Made by a program: the position numbers and the translations under genes
Shown here: one piece after another, positions 57,668 to 64,000 of the stretch
Layout of the letters: each line of letters starts with the position of its first letter
Numbering within the stretch: position 1 is the first letter of the stretch
The notes under the pieces: model-generated
The model's input: only the letters and a program-made list of their open reading frames with translations
What the model was told of the DNA's origin: nothing
The model's database searches: none
DNA from: Bacteroidales bacterium
GTDB lineage: Bacteria; Bacteroidota; Bacteroidia; Bacteroidales; Tenuifilaceae
Direction: 5' to 3'
NCBI GenBank assembly: GCA_003818205.1
Contig: RPRQ01000014.1
Location: 1-64,000, forward strand
DNA: 64,000 bases

Positions 57668-58159
57668 TTACTTTACGGCATCGTTCACGCTAGAGAAGTT
57701 GAACGGTAGGAGAAAGGTAACATCTTCAATCACGTAAACCCTTTCTTTTCCAACAAGAATTACCCTCATGGGCTTATTCCCAATATTTCTCGATTCTATC
57801 ATTACCTGTCGGCATGCACCGCAGGGCGACAGGGGTTCGCTCACCTGTTGATTGTTGAAACTTGCGGTTATGGCAATTGTATTGATAGGAATATTCGGAA
57901 ACTTTACCCCTGCATAAAACAGCGCTACACGTTCGGCGCAAAGTCCCGATGGGTATGAGCCATTCTCCTGATTGCTCCCTTGGATTATTTCACCATTTTC
58001 TAGTTGAATTGCTGCTCCAACCTTAAAGTTTGAATAGGGCGAATAGCTCGATTTTTGTGCTTCAACAGCGTTTTCAATCAATCGAATATCTTCGGTAGAG
58101 AGTTCTTTTTTGTTTGTGTATTCGGAGTATCTAAATCCAGACTCTTTGACTATTTTCAT
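57668..58159 (-). CDS. cdd: Cytidine deaminase
   Basis: 163 residues. Zinc site: Cys-Ala-Glu in 'GLCAERVALFYAG' and 'SPCGACRQVMIE'. The N-terminal 'SYSPYSNFKVGAAIQLENGEIIQGSNQENGSYP' is the substrate-binding segment. Converts cytidine and deoxycytidine to the uridine forms in pyrimidine salvage. Convergent with the cyclase gene, 7 bases apart. Confidence 0.95.
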   Translation of the reverse strand: MKIVKESGFRYSEYTNKKELSTEDIRLIENAVEAQKSSYSPYSNFKVGAAIQLENGEIIQGSNQENGSYPSGLCAERVALFYAGVKFPNIPINTIAITASFNNQQVSEPLSPCGACRQVMIESRNIGNKPMRVILVGKERVYVIEDVTFLLPFNFSSVNDAVK

Positions 58160-58257
58160 GGGTCAGAATTTTCGTTGAATAGTTATTAACATCACCAAAG
58201 GTATAAAATACTTCGATTTAAAGCCATTATTGCAACAAAAGTTAGCTGAAATAAGAT

Positions 58258-58286
58258 TTTGTTAATGTAACAATTTGATACTTTTG
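58258..58286 (+). promoter_or_regulatory. Promoter of the glucosaminidase gene
   Basis: TTTG (58258-58261), a 17-base spacer and TACTTTTG (58279-58286) fit the -33/-7 pattern. The ATG is 18 bases further on. Confidence 0.5.
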
Positions 58287-58304
58287 TAGCGAAAAAAATA
58301 AACG

Positions 58305-59249
58305 ATGAAGATTTTCTATTATCTCTTTTTTATAGCCTTTTTACCTACAGCGGTGTTTGCCCAAAAAAAGCAAACACGTGATGAGTATATAAATAGGTAT
58401 AAGGATGTCGCTATTTACCAGATGAAAACGCAGGGTGTTCCTGCAAGTATCATTCTTGCTCAGGGCTTATTGGAGAGTGATAACGGGAATAGCTATTTGG
58501 CGGTAAAGGCAAATAACCATTTTGGCATAAAATGCCATAAAACTTGGAGCGGACCAACCGTCCATCAGGATGATGATGCACGGAATGAGTGTTTTAGAAA
58601 GTATTCCAATCCTGAGAAATCGTATAAAGATCATTCCGATTTTTTAAGGGGAGCACGCCGATATGCTCTGCTATTCGACCTTGAACCAACCGATTATAAG
58701 GGGTGGTCATATGGTCTGAAAAAGGCAGGGTATGCCACCAACCCCCATTACGCAGAGATGCTCATTAAGATCATTGAGGATAATAGCCTATATGCCTTCG
58801 ATAGGGGAATTACCGTTGAGGTCGAGTCACCAACCAAGGGGTTAGGCGATCTGGTTGATATCGATAAGTTTGTAATCGATATGAATAAGCATCGAAAGGT
58901 TTATACCCGCAATAGAATTAAGTATATCATTGTAAAGAAAGGCGATAATTATGCGAGTTTGACCAAGGAGCTCGAATTACTGCCTTGGCAATTGGCCAGC
59001 TATAATGAGATTAGCAAGGATTCCTCGCTGAAAGATGGTCAAGAGCTCTACATCCAACCAAAACGAACGAAAGCCGAGATTAACCATTCCGTTCATGTTG
59101 TCGAGAAGGGAGAAACGATGTACTCCATTTCGCAGATGTATGGCATTAAGATGAAGAGTTTATATCGTAAAAATAGGATGCAGATTGGCAATGATATAGA
59201 AGTTGGTCAGGTTATTCATCTCCGAAAGCGGAAGGCAATGGATCGTTGA
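58305..59249 (+). CDS. Secreted glucosaminidase (GH73-like) with LysM
   Basis: 314 residues. Signal peptide 'YYLFFIAFLPTAVFA', then an endo-beta-N-acetylglucosaminidase domain (about 25-165): 'GVPASIILAQGLLESDNGNSYLAVKANNHFGIKCHKTW' contains the likely catalytic Glu in 'LLES'. A weak LysM lies near 205-255 and a clear one at the end ('HVVEKGETMYSISQMYGIKMKSLYRKN'). It binds and cleaves peptidoglycan in the periplasm. Confidence 0.92.
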   Translation: MKIFYYLFFIAFLPTAVFAQKKQTRDEYINRYKDVAIYQMKTQGVPASIILAQGLLESDNGNSYLAVKANNHFGIKCHKTWSGPTVHQDDDARNECFRKYSNPEKSYKDHSDFLRGARRYALLFDLEPTDYKGWSYGLKKAGYATNPHYAEMLIKIIEDNSLYAFDRGITVEVESPTKGLGDLVDIDKFVIDMNKHRKVYTRNRIKYIIVKKGDNYASLTKELELLPWQLASYNEISKDSSLKDGQELYIQPKRTKAEINHSVHVVEKGETMYSISQMYGIKMKSLYRKNRMQIGNDIEVGQVIHLRKRKAMDR

Positions 59250-59370
59250 TAAGAGAACGGTCGGCGGTATGCGCCGTAGGGGATTTCGGAGTTGCGTTTG
59301 TATCACCCGTTATGAACCCTGATGCGAGCTGAAACGCTTGATATACCACTAAAACCCCTATGGCGTATGA

Positions 59371-59390
59371 CCGCTTGTTAGCAACAGGTG
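59371..59390 (-). repeat. 20-base dyad, left boundary of the IetAS block
   Basis: The minus strand reads CACCTGTTGCTAACAAGCGG. It matches the dyad at 63361-63380 at 18 of 20 positions, in inverted orientation. The two mismatches are both C/T. Confidence 0.6.
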
Positions 59391-59510
59391 TTTTTATTTT
59401 ATCATTCATTTAGCTCTCATTTACCTTATCAATTTGCACTGCTGTATCCACAAAGCACAAATTTATTTTGTTTTTTTGCGTTGGTCAAAATGCGTTGTAA
59501 AGGCGGAAGA

Positions 59511-59581
59511 TCTTTTGCAAGCCTTTGGTTTTGGGAATGGCTCGTGTGGGCTTGCAGATGTGCTTGCGACTGTGCGCTGGC
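59511..59581 (+). repeat. Hairpin-bearing direct repeat, copy A
   Basis: Carries TGCAAGCC (59516-59523) pairing with GGCTTGCA (59549-59556), with 'GGCTCGTGTG' in the loop. Copy B at 63152-63222 has the same layout and the same 33-base arm offset, with TGCAAGTT pairing with AACTTGCA. Confidence 0.65.
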
Positions 59582-62092
59582 TTATTGTATTTTTATAATT
59601 ACAGGAATTTCAATCATATTTTTAACAGTTGTATAAAGTTCAACATCTTGTGCAGGAGTATCAAGTGAAATAATCAATGAATAACGAGTTTTTGTATCTA
59701 CTTTATTTAGATGCTTGCGCTCTCTCCACCATCCAATTACTGGATATATAGCTAAATAATTACATGTGGCTATTGCAGCTGCCGTACTTTCAATATAGTC
59801 AGAATGCATTGAACCATTGCTACGATTATTCGCTCCAATTGCCCATCTACCACTACCTGAATTACTATTTATTATTTCTCCTTCCTCTCTTGCCTCTACA
59901 TTGATTCGTTTTCGGAAATCATCTTCTAATTCACCATCGTTATTAATATCAAACCTTAAGCCATGCGATTGAAAACGGTACTTGTCCTTCCAACCAATTT
60001 CACCTGCACCAGGTTCTATAAAGTAGGAAAGTGTAATTCTAAATTTTACAGGAGTTGCACCAAGTGATAATAGTAAATCCTTAGGCCAAGGAAGATTGAA
60101 AAAGTGAATCTCATTCGTTTCAGGTTGGTTTTTGTCATTGAATCCATACGGCTGAATAATTTCCTGTGCAATAAAAGTCAATGCACTTTCTTTACTATAT
60201 AAGGCTCTGTCAAGATTTGGAAAACCATATCCATAGACTCTAAGTAAATTAACAAAATCCTTTTTCTTTTTTTGATTTATATCCATTTGGTTAAACATGT
60301 TATCATTCCAACTAGCAGAATGTACCATTAAACCTCGAATGGTTTCAGGCCAAGCATCAGAATATTCATAAGCAATTTTTGCAGCAAACCATGATGCTTG
60401 AGCTGTTGCTGCACTAGTGGCATTAATAGTATCAAATGGTTTTATATTAAAGGACTTAGATGTAGAAAGCAATTCCAAATCTTCATGTGGTAATATTGAA
60501 TTATCTGGGGCTTTTAAAAGATTGCCACCTTCAAAAACCACATCAGGCTTAATGGGCCATTTTTTCTCCCAAACCAAAGACGTGGAACTAAAAGGCGAAA
60601 GTTCACCCTGATTTGCAAGCGGAGTATAATCCTTAAATTTATCATCACTTACTCGAACTTTATCGGTATATGCCCCAATTGTCAATGCATTCCATGATTG
60701 AGCAGGATTCTCAATGGTCGTTACAAAATTTGTGTTAGGATAATCTTTCCAAGCCTCTTCATCATTAATATTGCCAGCAGAAATAATTATTAATTTTTGA
60801 TTTTCTCCATCACCAAATGCAAGATTGTCTAATGCTCCAGACCATGACGAAGGGCGACCAATGCCGGCATCTTCTTTTGATGTAACTGCCATACAATAAA
60901 CCAAGATTAGGCCAGGATTTTGAATTTCTGCTCTGGCAATACCCTGTGCTGTGATATCTCCCCATAACTCTTTTGGTGTGGATTCATGCAAAGGTGGTGG
61001 CAAAATCTTGACTGAGCAAAGTTTATGAGTAATGGGAACCCCATTTCTAGTAGATAAAATTTCTTCAAAATTGCCATATCCTGCAACGCCTGCCATTAAT
61101 GTCCCATGGCCTGCTCTACCACCATTATAATGGTCGTTTGTCCCCCATTCAGGATTAACCGTCAAAGTATTTTCATTATCTAATAATGGCTGTAAAAGCT
61201 GGTGACCATTGTTTACTCCAGTGTCTAACACGCAAACTTTTATATTGCTCTCAATCAGTTCTATTCTTTTAAGTAAATCATCAACCCAAGTTTGTTGCTC
61301 GGCTGCACTTTCTCTTACCCAAAAACCAGCTAGCTCTTGACCTGCTCTGAATTCGGCCAAAAAATCGCTACTCATCATTAGCTCAATTAATTGAGTTCGG
61401 TTTGAATTAATCAGTATAACGGCTCTTTCTGGAAAAACAATAACGTTTTGTTTATATTCAATTTTGATTTTTTCCAGCGTTGCCCAAAATTTAGCAATCT
61501 GTTCCTTTTCTTTCTTATCTTTTGTGTTGACGTTCAACCAAGCCTCACACCATTTGGAGTTTGTTCCGGGTATTAATTGTTCGTTATCTGTCCAAAGTCC
61601 TTCTAGTAAAGCAATACTTACATCTTCTATGCTGTTTACCAAGGGTGCATTCTTTGGCTTACCTGTAGGTGATAATTTAGCTTCATCTTGATAATCGGAA
61701 ATTTTCTTTATAAAGAATCCTTCCATCCCATTGGGCACATAAACAGTTGCTTTTATTTGATTTAAGCCCTCACTCGTAATTTCTTCTTGAATATTGAGAA
61801 GTCGGATTCCTTTTGGAATATTTTCTAAACTCTTTGTAATTAAATCATGCCCAGCAGCACTAATAAATGAAAGGTATGTTCCTTCACGAGTCGCTATCTT
61901 CTCAGCAGCCCTTGTGGTTTGTAATTTTTCTTTTTCTTTCCAAATTTCACCGAACTCTTTTAGGAGTTTTGCACTGTGTGAAGCTCTATCTCGCTGTGGA
62001 ATTATTGGTTGTTTGCCTGGCTTTTGAGAAACCTTATATTTTTCAGGCTTAGCATTTCCTTTAATGAAAATGTGCTTATATGAATCTGCCAT
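59582..62092 (-). CDS. ietS: IetS-like subtilisin (S8) protease
   Basis: 836 residues, no signal peptide. The subtilase triad is present in order: Asp290 ('VCVLDTGV'), His329 ('GHGTLMAGV') and Ser560 ('NATSAATAQ'), with the oxyanion Asn441 ('ISAGNIN'). A 280-residue N-terminal extension without known domain precedes the protease, and a beta-rich C-terminal region follows it. Together with the AAA ATPase encoded 9 bases upstream this is the layout of IetAS, an anti-phage system also known for plasmid incompatibility. Presumably the ATPase controls the protease. The triad is intact, so activity is expected. Confidence 0.85.
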   Translation of the reverse strand: MADSYKHIFIKGNAKPEKYKVSQKPGKQPIIPQRDRASHSAKLLKEFGEIWKEKEKLQTTRAAEKIATREGTYLSFISAAGHDLITKSLENIPKGIRLLNIQEEITSEGLNQIKATVYVPNGMEGFFIKKISDYQDEAKLSPTGKPKNAPLVNSIEDVSIALLEGLWTDNEQLIPGTNSKWCEAWLNVNTKDKKEKEQIAKFWATLEKIKIEYKQNVIVFPERAVILINSNRTQLIELMMSSDFLAEFRAGQELAGFWVRESAAEQQTWVDDLLKRIELIESNIKVCVLDTGVNNGHQLLQPLLDNENTLTVNPEWGTNDHYNGGRAGHGTLMAGVAGYGNFEEILSTRNGVPITHKLCSVKILPPPLHESTPKELWGDITAQGIARAEIQNPGLILVYCMAVTSKEDAGIGRPSSWSGALDNLAFGDGENQKLIIISAGNINDEEAWKDYPNTNFVTTIENPAQSWNALTIGAYTDKVRVSDDKFKDYTPLANQGELSPFSSTSLVWEKKWPIKPDVVFEGGNLLKAPDNSILPHEDLELLSTSKSFNIKPFDTINATSAATAQASWFAAKIAYEYSDAWPETIRGLMVHSASWNDNMFNQMDINQKKKKDFVNLLRVYGYGFPNLDRALYSKESALTFIAQEIIQPYGFNDKNQPETNEIHFFNLPWPKDLLLSLGATPVKFRITLSYFIEPGAGEIGWKDKYRFQSHGLRFDINNDGELEDDFRKRINVEAREEGEIINSNSGSGRWAIGANNRSNGSMHSDYIESTAAAIATCNYLAIYPVIGWWRERKHLNKVDTKTRYSLIISLDTPAQDVELYTTVKNMIEIPVIIKIQ

Positions 62093-62101
62093 CGTGTAAT
62101 G

Positions 62102-63055
62102 TTATTTATGATATGCTGCATTTCGGTCTTCTATTGCTTTAAGTATTAAATCGTTATTCATGGTTTGCTTTTCGTTTAGAACTGTTTCTTTTATGGCATC
62201 TAAACAAGCTAATGAAATCTCTGAATGGCTTAGACCATTAATATTAGGTAGTAATTTGGCAAAATTGACTTTCTTGTTAAATCGTGCTAAACGGTTTTTA
62301 AGCAATTCTAATTTCTCTTTCTCGGAAGGCAAATGGTATAATATTACATCATCAAATCTACGGAATAATGCTTGGTCTAATAGTGATTTATTATTTGTGA
62401 TAGCAATTATCAAACTACCAGAGTTATCTCTATCAATAAATTGAAGAAAAGAATTGAGAATCCTACGCATTTCTCCAACATCATTGTCTCTACTTCTTTC
62501 CCCTCCAATTGCATCAAATTCATCAAATAGATAAACCCCTTGCTTATGCTCTATTAAATCAAATATCTGACGTAACTTGGCACTAGTTTCACCCATGAAT
62601 TTCGTCACCATTTTATCCATAAGAATAGTATAAAGTGGTAAATTTAATTCATTTGCAATAATTGATGCAGTAAGGGTTTTACCTGTTCCAGGAGGGCCTG
62701 AAAGTAGAATTTTTCTACGATTTTCTAAATCGTGCTTCCGCAGTTTATCTCGTTGGACAAATTCTTTTATTATTCGTTCAATTTTGCTTACAATATCATC
62801 AGAGGAAATTATATCACTAAGGGTTACTGCAGGTACATTTTCTATAATTAGCCCTTGTAAATCAGCATTAAAAACCTTGGGTTTCTGTTTGTTTTCTTTG
62901 GCTTTGTCAATAAGAGATTTAATCTCATTTGCGACTACTGCATGTCCTAATTTAGCTTCATGAGCAGCTATTTGCAATGCCAGAGTAGTGAATCGCTCAG
63001 GTTCATTGTCATAATGAGATTTTATAAGTGATAATATGTATTCTGCTTTTGCCAT
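62102..63055 (-). CDS. ietA: IetA-like AAA+ ATPase
   Basis: 317 residues. A helical N-terminal part (about 1-75) precedes a classic AAA domain: Walker A GPPGTGKT (120-127), Walker B 'GVYLFDEFDAIGG' (about 173-185), sensor 1 'IIAITNN' and Arg fingers in 'ALFRRFDDV'. Such ATPases remodel proteins. It is 9 bases upstream of the S8 protease gene, as in IetAS systems. A minus-strand TAAATTTG (63063-63070) lies 7 bases before the ATG and would give a nearly leaderless transcript if used. No upstream partner. Confidence 0.87.
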   Translation of the reverse strand: MAKAEYILSLIKSHYDNEPERFTTLALQIAAHEAKLGHAVVANEIKSLIDKAKENKQKPKVFNADLQGLIIENVPAVTLSDIISSDDIVSKIERIIKEFVQRDKLRKHDLENRRKILLSGPPGTGKTLTASIIANELNLPLYTILMDKMVTKFMGETSAKLRQIFDLIEHKQGVYLFDEFDAIGGERSRDNDVGEMRRILNSFLQFIDRDNSGSLIIAITNNKSLLDQALFRRFDDVILYHLPSEKEKLELLKNRLARFNKKVNFAKLLPNINGLSHSEISLACLDAIKETVLNEKQTMNNDLILKAIEDRNAAYHK

Positions 63056-63151
63056 ATGCCTACAAATTTAGGCTTTTTATTAACATTTTTAAACTAATAA
63101 CTTAAGTTTAAATTTGCAATAGTGTCTTGGGTGCGTCTAGGAAATTGTAGC

Positions 63152-63222
63152 TCTTTTGCAAGTTTTTGGTTTGAGCATCGGCTCGTGTGAACTTGCAAAT
63201 GCTCTGCAATGTGGGTTGGGTT
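63152..63222 (+). repeat. Hairpin-bearing direct repeat, copy B
   Basis: TGCAAGTT (63157-63164) pairs with AACTTGCA (63190-63197) around 'GGCTCGTGTG'. It is a diverged copy of 59511-59581 in the same orientation. Confidence 0.65.
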
Positions 63223-63360
63223 TCTTTTTTCTTTTTTGAGTGTGGGTAAAAACAAAAAAATCATCCAATTTGCACCAACCTATCAAAGAGTTAAATTCCA
63301 CTTCTCTATTTGTCAATCTATCAATTTTGCACGTATCTATTGAACTGCACGATTTTTTTA

Positions 63361-63380
63361 CACTTGTTGCTAACAAGTGG
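63361..63380 (+). repeat. 20-base dyad, right boundary of the IetAS block
   Basis: CACTTGTTGCTAACAAGTGG: arms CACTTGTT/AACAAGTG around GCT form a perfect hairpin. Related in inverted orientation to 59371-59390. Confidence 0.6.
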
Positions 63381-63441
63381 ATAAGTAGGAACGTGGTTCG
63401 TTTATCAGAAGTCAAGTATCCAGTGCCAGATATCTGGGATA

Positions 63442-64000
63442 TTAAATCATTCTTAACGGAATCAAATCTCTCAATCCATTCAGCATATCGCTTGTTTTCA
63501 TTGGTCGTTTACCTGCGAGTTGTATTTCGGCAATGCTTATAAATTCATCGCTACATGCAACTTGTAAAACGTTCTTCCCGTCTATTTTTATTGAGCCGAA
63601 TTCAAGATTATGTTTCTTTTCAATCAGGCTTGATCTTAGTATCTTAGCCTGAATGGAACTTCCATTATCAAAGGTAATCTCAGTCCAAGCGGCAGGGTAG
63701 GGGCTTAATCCTCGGATGAGGTTGTGAATCTCTTGGGCTGTTTTACTCCAATCGATTCGGCAAGTATCTCTAAAAATTTTTGGAGCAGATTTAATGATTC
63801 GATCTGTTTTAAGTAGATTCTCCTGAGAAATAGGTTTAATACAATTATCCGCTAACCCCTTAACGGTTTTAAGTACTAGTTCAGCCCCTATAACCATTAG
63901 CCTATCATGAAGTTCGCCAGCTGTTTCATTCTCGGATACATTTATTTCTTCGCTGAAAATAACTTTTCCTGTATCAATCTCATGATCTATCAGGAATGTA
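63442..64000 (-). CDS. fmt: Methionyl-tRNA formyltransferase, C-terminal part (cut by window end)
   Basis: The frame stays open to the window edge, so the 5' end is missing. Visible part: 'FLIDHEIDTGKVIFSEEI', 'ETAGELHDRLMVIGAELVLKTV' and 'IDWSKTAQEIHNLIRGLSPYPAAW', then the Fmt C-terminal domain ending '...LQVACSDEFISIAEIQLAGKRPMKTSDMLNG'. Fmt formylates initiator Met-tRNA. The catalytic N-terminal residues lie outside. The ATG at 63897 is internal, not the start. Confidence 0.93.
   Translation of the reverse strand, partial: TFLIDHEIDTGKVIFSEEINVSENETAGELHDRLMVIGAELVLKTVKGLADNCIKPISQENLLKTDRIIKSAPKIFRDTCRIDWSKTAQEIHNLIRGLSPYPAAWTEITFDNGSSIQAKILRSSLIEKKHNLEFGSIKIDGKNVLQVACSDEFISIAEIQLAGKRPMKTSDMLNGLRDLIPLRMI

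Follow-up and report, generated by a model that had tools for sequence, protein, structure and literature searches.

The gene cassettes closest to the element described here are those of sedentary chromosomal integrons, which form one-directional arrays with one hairpin site (attC) per cassette and G|TT ends; the usual attC core comprises 7 bp, with the canonical boxes RYYYAAC and GTTRRRY. These arrangements recur in a system one predicted member of which, a cassette with two similar hairpins (H_A and H_B) around the two-gene operon IetAS, lies in a 64,000-nt stretch of a Tenuifilaceae genome (Bacteroidales bacterium, contig RPRQ01000014.1, positions 1 to 64,000; hereafter the window). The likeness extends to complementarity between a cassette's own two ends and to a bottom-strand bias of the attC-like sites. 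The system differs from integrons in that the two recombinases checked lack the IntI-specific insert, the cassettes here can hold several genes and inner hairpins (H), and the end complementarity extends beyond the usual core. Because the defining features tested are lacking, the recombinase is not assigned to IntI, nor H to attC; we class the system as a variant of integron-type cassettes, apparently new.

Hairpins also flank or follow genes in two other well-known settings. IS200/IS605 elements have similar hairpins in direct orientation near both element ends, and in an intrinsic terminator a stem is directly followed by a T-tract; the hairpins here come without a transposase and without a T-tract. 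The IetAS anti-phage system is itself described, and both window proteins match its PADLOC models; in the window an integron-type cassette appears to carry it. Passages of PMC8618304 and PMC9668308 report integrons from Bacteroidota, and for Bacteroidetes a passage of the IntegronFinder 2.0 paper (PMC9024848) gives Salinibacter ruber as its complete integron. Searches of open-licence papers listed no title or abstract start that describes H hairpins or a XerA-like integron system of Bacteroidota, and no name for H, which is a weak absence.

A predicted integron-type cassette

It is proposed that positions 59258..63373 of the window (minus strand, 4,116 bp) are probably an integron-type cassette, whose ends were placed by the G|TT rule between a glucosaminidase/LysM gene on one side and fmt on the other. 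The 3' end of the predicted cassette is an attC-like hairpin (59258..59384, minus strand) that begins with an R''-like TTGCTAAC, as read on the minus strand, and continues into the stem; the region 59250-59395 folds at -49 kcal/mol (z -2.55), and the site shares 112 of 128 aligned bases with one in the array of the relative G007. At the predicted cassette start (63366..63373, minus strand), TTAGCAAC follows G|TT and is complementary to the cassette's own R''. Joining the predicted ends, 59257/59258 and 63373/63374, completes an attC-like site, in which TTGCTAAC and GTTAGCAA are both present; the core GTTAGCAA falls one R short of the canonical boxes, as do the cores of several relatives. An inverted TTGTTAGCAACA pair returned for the window by a repeat finder is explained as the R'' of the cassette and its own start. 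The left and right shells of the window do not form mutual inverted repeats, their score being 23 while 200 shuffles reach 31.

H_A and H_B bracket the IetA-IetS operon, and these are the only two genes between them. IetS is a subtilase (peptidase S8) of 836 aa (59582..62092, minus strand; PADLOC IetS 2e-31, PF00082 5.3e-59), and IetA is an AAA ATPase of 317 aa (62102..63055, minus strand; PADLOC IetA 2.9e-70, PF00004 2.8e-30). An AAA ATPase and a subtilase in one operon is the arrangement that identifies IetAS, and anti-phage activity is predicted from sequence. The block is absent from the same-genus genome G004 (L208), where the LysM gene directly precedes the formyltransferase gene, and the two neighbours are likewise adjacent without it in the same-genus G002 (L210); L212 resembles an empty locus, but in a weak alignment. 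The cassette stands alone in the window. Over the 64 kb our attC-like detector returned no site, the window's own included, which it misses because the R' of that site lies at a foreign site.

The detector gave 117 hits in real loci, as against 13 in the same loci reversed. In G007 a tyrosine recombinase gene is followed by a same-strand series of genes, each ending in an attC-like site. For 45 cassettes having attC-like sites at both ends, R'' matches the start of its own cassette at a mean of 4.62 of 5 bases (at least 4/5 in 40 of the 45), as against 2.13 of 5 for the start of the next cassette (at least 4/5 in 8 of the 45), and 2,000 permutations reach at most 2.58. Because R'' matches the start of its own cassette in these arrays, the moving unit is taken to be bounded by the attC-like site, with H inside. 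The same end-match rule is obeyed by the H-bearing intervals in L056, L141, L160 and L043 (1.5 to 7.5 kb). Verified cassettes with H are longer than those without (4 and 36 cassettes, P 0.0012), a result that is indicative only, since most lengths were measured in loci that had been selected for H and truncated at 8 kb. In 99 attC-like sites, G.T wobbles number 160 on the bottom strand and 18 on the top strand; one conserved position gives much of this bias, and without it the counts are 60 and 13 (72 sites). The bias is consistent with bottom-strand folding of the attC-like sites.

The enzyme driving the cassettes is rather likely a XerA-like tyrosine recombinase. In the window's own genome, contig C150 carries a recombinase gene (L186:6938-8044) followed on the same strand by attC-like sites, and such sites are present in 7 of 12 recombinase loci (L184, L185, L186, L189, L191, L193 and L195). 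The recombinases of G000 and G007 have XerA and XerC-like proteins as their best structural-chain matches. IntI4 (PDB 2a3v) is the same kind of tyrosine recombinase and aligns in two stretches only (E 1.7e-34), its residues 184-240 (57 aa) corresponding to merely 15 aa in the G000 recombinase. The IntI-specific insert near patch III, which passages of PMC9668308 and PMC8138268 state to be needed for integron recombination, was not found in the G000 and G007 recombinases, and the model hits are split. A true IntI, above the NCBIfam cut-off and in the same gene order, occurs in G033 (L196, G033:C50); attC-like sites of the type described here are absent within the 12 kb read at that locus. L184:4662-5756 encodes a beta-lactamase-family protein (PF00144) between two attC-like sites near a recombinase gene.

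The H hairpins and their family

The preliminary description of this DNA had reported two diverged direct repeats that fold into hairpins, and had read the base changes on both sides of two pairs as a sign that the fold is kept. The pair of hairpins is real: copy A has the arms TGCAAGCC at 59516 and GGCTTGCA at 59549, those of copy B are TGCAAGTT (63157) and AACTTGCA (63190), the spacing is 33 bases in each, and the common inter-arm sequence GGCTCGTGTG is present at 59539 and 63180. A repeat finder returns H_A and H_B as a single 53-nt direct repeat of 79% identity. H_A (59508..59560, plus strand) lies between the IetS stop and the attC-like site, with a covariance-model match over 59489-59585 (70.6 bits), and H_B (63149..63201, plus strand) lies upstream of IetA, with a match over 63130-63224 (74.1 bits). 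Each H has two stems of ~9 pairs, P1 on the outside and P2 within it. Compared with shuffled sequences, H_A alone folds modestly better than chance on the H strand (z -2.03; 8/200 shuffles equal or better) and H_B clearly so (z -3.33; 0/200 as good); on the opposite strand the values are z -1.29 for H_A (28/200) and z -3.98 for H_B (1/200). As H_A alone is only modest against shuffles, the case for the fold rests on the family.

In the family the fold is indeed kept, P1 and P2 both covarying over 84 distinct copies, the set to which the following pairing frequencies refer. Positions 1 and 2 of P2 are paired in 98% and 94% of copies (shuffle means 77% and 45%), position 2 using three common pair types, and positions 3 and 7 of P1 in 94% and 93% (shuffle means 44% and 41%); at P1 positions 10-12 pairing is no higher than chance. 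The analysis parsed 118 of 124 sites and skipped 6. Because the pattern used in the search specified the loop and CTCTTT and left the arms free, conservation of the loop is partly by construction and covariation of the arms is not. With a second pattern, in which P1 was fixed and P2 free, all seven sites retain the P2 stem (scores 8-12) with varied sequences. RNAalifold on an uncorrected MAFFT alignment gives fewer pairs, 16, of which 6 show changes on both sides. Further copies that do not keep the pairing, named in the preliminary description as the outcome that would speak against a fold, do exist but are rare: in 5 of 118 sites one stem or both pair badly, and by our own reading L040:8470 is one more. 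P1 contains an inner purine.purine mismatch on the H strand in 57 of 84 sites. GCGTTGGC-like boxes, matching in at least 6 of 8 positions, occur at the two outer edges of H in 51/82 and 51/80 sites (11.2 and 8.7 expected); their positions are fixed, and they point the same way as the box in the loop; the loop copy of GCGTTGGC is mostly pattern-imposed, the pattern having fixed CGTTGGC(T) in the loop only.

H_A and H_B belong to a large, Bacteroidota-wide hairpin family. At least 120 stretches in genome contigs match the loop and CTCTTT pattern, and among the matches listed 110 of 120 record titles name Bacteroidota. The strict pattern with up to 3 mismatches finds no place in the window's own genome besides H_A and H_B. 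A covariance-model scan had been suggested in the preliminary description; with a model of 62 copies, such a scan of the own genome finds six copies at E<=0.001, two each on contigs C41 and C137 and one each on C74 and C38. The model has a match in at least 21 of 27 same-family genomes at E<=0.001 and, at E<=1e-6 and under stricter filters, in at least 44 of 296 genomes sampled across the phylum, both counts being lower bounds with up to 150 and up to 14 candidates, respectively, scored per genome. The exact H pattern was not found in viral contigs, and window:59258-59580 has no match in plasmids and phages, comparisons that probe little beyond the window's own shell and a single pattern. H also occurs in contigs titled Delongbacteria (L055), Patescibacteria (L065), Desulfobulbaceae (L072), Atribacteria (L083), Nealsonbacteria (L088), Chlorobiota (L104), Ignavibacteriales (L142), Methanobrevibacter (L149), Clostridia (L150) and Ignavibacteria (L159); these are either binning errors or transfers out of Bacteroidota. 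In three copies (L055:1018-1108, L074:3749-3858 and L085:5745-5850) a small TCCCGA...TCGGGA palindrome has been inserted within H, on the 3' side near AATG/TG, and L104 has a different insert at the same place; a REP-like element may use H as a target.

H has a constant place in its surroundings. Of the 72 sites with an open reading frame (ORF) to either side of H, 63 have the nearest one on each side running antisense to H. In most regions read, H_A is followed in the gene sense by a longer hairpin whose ends resemble R'' and R'. The strand of the attC-like site relative to H is fixed, always the sense strand of the genes (86/86 in loci with H), and 65 of 160 H have a downstream attC-like site in the same locus; the distance is within 200 nt for 47 of them and 142-149 nt for 21. 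These 160 comprise 16 of 19 H from one model scan, from which the two window hits were excluded along with L184:5978 (E 0.007), and all 144 from two others; attC-like sites scoring at least 14 (100 of 117) were used for distances and strands. The position at the 3' end of single genes, which the preliminary description had proposed to check, holds in part: 64 of 98 stop-to-H distances are 17-59 nt, but copy B is situated upstream of IetAS, and this cargo is an operon rather than a single gene. When cassettes with the same shell and different cargo are compared, similarity drops to background at the cargo-side edge of H on both sides (81 pairs from 45 sites for A, 54 pairs from 23 sites for B); the pairs were selected for a shared shell and unshared cargo, and the position of the edge itself was not imposed. 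H is thus the inner end of a conserved cassette shell.

Proposed role of H and alternative explanations

We favour, by a narrow balance of the evidence, a reading in which the attC-like site moves the cassette and H holds or receives the cargo. A XerA-like tyrosine recombinase would excise and integrate the block at G|TT, its substrate being the bottom strand of the attC-like site in folded form. H would work as folded DNA, either as a single strand or as a cruciform, and would mark the inner border of the shell, where operons may join or be exchanged within it; this role is put forward tentatively. The wobbles of H show no strand bias (G.T 27, A.C 22, or 0.20 and 0.17 of the null), and because the two are equal a fold at the DNA level is favoured over one in RNA. 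Beyond such a fold at the cargo border, H may have a role in loading cargo. A stronger version, in which H is a second, structure-dependent joining site, so that a shell of attC-like ends and H_B/H_A captures unrelated operons between its H sites and makes integron cassettes of them, is speculative and rather improbable at present.

Four other explanations of H have to be weighed. It may be an element of RNA or transcription, H_A ending or protecting the operon mRNA and H_B insulating it from upstream read-through. This is the main rival and a serious possibility, if less likely than not: in the gene sense H lies 17-59 nt past the stop in the 64 of 98 cases above, the few verified cassettes with H are the longer ones (1.5, 6.7, 7.1 and 7.5 kb), and 12 of 27 segments after H_B contain a promoter-like TANNTTTG (1.5 expected), several of the 12 being near-identical loci. 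The same TANNTTTG is, however, enriched after H_A too (20/92, 2.1 expected), and there is no G.U excess on either strand of H (27 and 22), unlike in a small tRNA control (5 and 0 in 6 tRNAs). The structured RNA that the preliminary description offered as one of its two options stays on as a rival, with equal G.T and A.C counts that are unlike those of a structured RNA. A search of 58000-64000 against Rfam yielded no family matching H and one chance-level snoU30 match elsewhere in the range. H was rejected as a terminator, since no T-tract was seen by eye directly after the stem in the sequences read, the window included, and since the stretch from H_A to attC is not C-rich, unlike Rho sites (C 0.18, G 0.17 in 35 segments). 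H could also be mere shared homology, its arms repaired by template switching and the cargo exchanged by ordinary homologous recombination. The arms do change as whole blocks, with G.T and A.C mismatches equally rare, and the hybrid L040:8470, a unit with a single H and no cargo, is the expected product of H_A x H_B recombination. Against this, repair of the arms should erase the purine.purine mismatch seen in P1 of 57 of the 84 sites, a count that shared descent may inflate; moreover, H has fixed boxes, a fixed orientation and, in many cases, a fixed distance to attC, and H hybrids are rare. We regard the explanation as unlikely.

The remaining two explanations have very little probability. 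Two similar hairpins in direct orientation near both block ends recall the left and right ends of an IS200/IS605-like (Y1 transposase) element carrying IetAS, but the transposase is absent between H_A and H_B, and conserved shell and attC-like ends lie outside H. As a hairpin that covaries and follows genes, H might itself be taken for the attC-like site of the cassette, the other option of the preliminary description. An attC-like recombination site does fit the system but not this hairpin, because the cassette closes through the separate hairpin at 59258-59384, outside copy A, to which the end complementarity belongs; the ends of H are direct boxes, not inverted ones, and most verified cassettes are without H. 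End complementarity and box orientation thus rule H out as attC.

Several findings weigh against the favoured reading, in which attC moves the cassette and H holds or receives cargo. No attC-like site is present in 5 of the 12 recombinase loci (L188, L190, L192, L194 and L196), four of which have the gene within ~1.3 kb of the downstream contig end, the fifth being the true IntI; in L185 the sites lie upstream of the recombinase gene, on the opposite strand. The integron integrase model TIGR02249 matches 16/16 genomes but 14/14 controls too, and hence has little weight. The 5.7-kb stretch with H in L044 departs from the end-match rule (2/5), and 36 of 40 verified cassettes are without H, none being found in L193. 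The spacer of G004 is too diverged to fix the junction: an exact junction matched by eye was not borne out by an offset test of 1,681 pairs, in which the predicted ends rank 437th, better ones lying tens of bases off. G004 therefore gives the absence of the block and not its exact ends, and this lowered our confidence in the cassette reading. H itself has neither the bottom-strand wobble bias nor the inverted R''/R' ends of attC. Exact-pattern hybrids of A and B were found in 0 of 395 genomes in either direction, at low power (8 intact B sites in 7 of the 395), so that frequent crossing over in the H loop was dropped as a candidate and recombination at H is thinly supported. Lastly, the IntI insert is incompletely conserved even within the integron-like group, according to a passage of PMC8138268.

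If the favoured reading is true, integron-like gene shuffling would be widespread in Bacteroidota and would use an enzyme without the mark by which IntI is recognised, and whole defence operons would be moved, beyond single genes. The conserved H would offer a handle on how multi-gene cargo turns into a cassette. Should H join cargo, it would provide a direct mechanism for cassette formation, an open question for integrons, at work across the phylum with a non-IntI recombinase.

Cargo of other cassettes and neighbouring genes

Contig C3 of G009 carries five successive cargo units over 45-99 kb, each flanked by H, with four joints of 510-520 bp and a recombinase gene at 105 kb. The cargo includes Mokosh-like, type III restriction and OLD/Gabija-like proteins and a resistance-nodulation-division (RND) efflux operon. 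PADLOC was run on ten cargo proteins, nine from G009 and one from contig C137, and five were without a match. Two of the G009 units (L197:595-8942 and L041:268-18566) contain large ORFs (1,446 and 1,447 aa), of which the first encodes an AcrB-type protein fused to an outer-membrane efflux domain; they also contain small ORFs in recurring sets of identical lengths, as though these had been amplified. In the window's own genome a second cassette of the window's type lies on contig C137 (L187:4837-10798) and is followed by an attC-like site; its cargo, between two H copies, encodes a restriction-modification protein of type ISP together with an AAA protein.

In the window, TAAATTTG, which we take to be a Bacteroidota -7-like promoter element, lies between H_B and IetA (63063..63070, minus strand). 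The left neighbour outside the cassette encodes a glucosaminidase with a LysM domain (58305..59249, plus strand), and the right neighbour, also outside, encodes a formyltransferase C-terminal domain (63442..63897, minus strand; PF02911) and is read as fmt.

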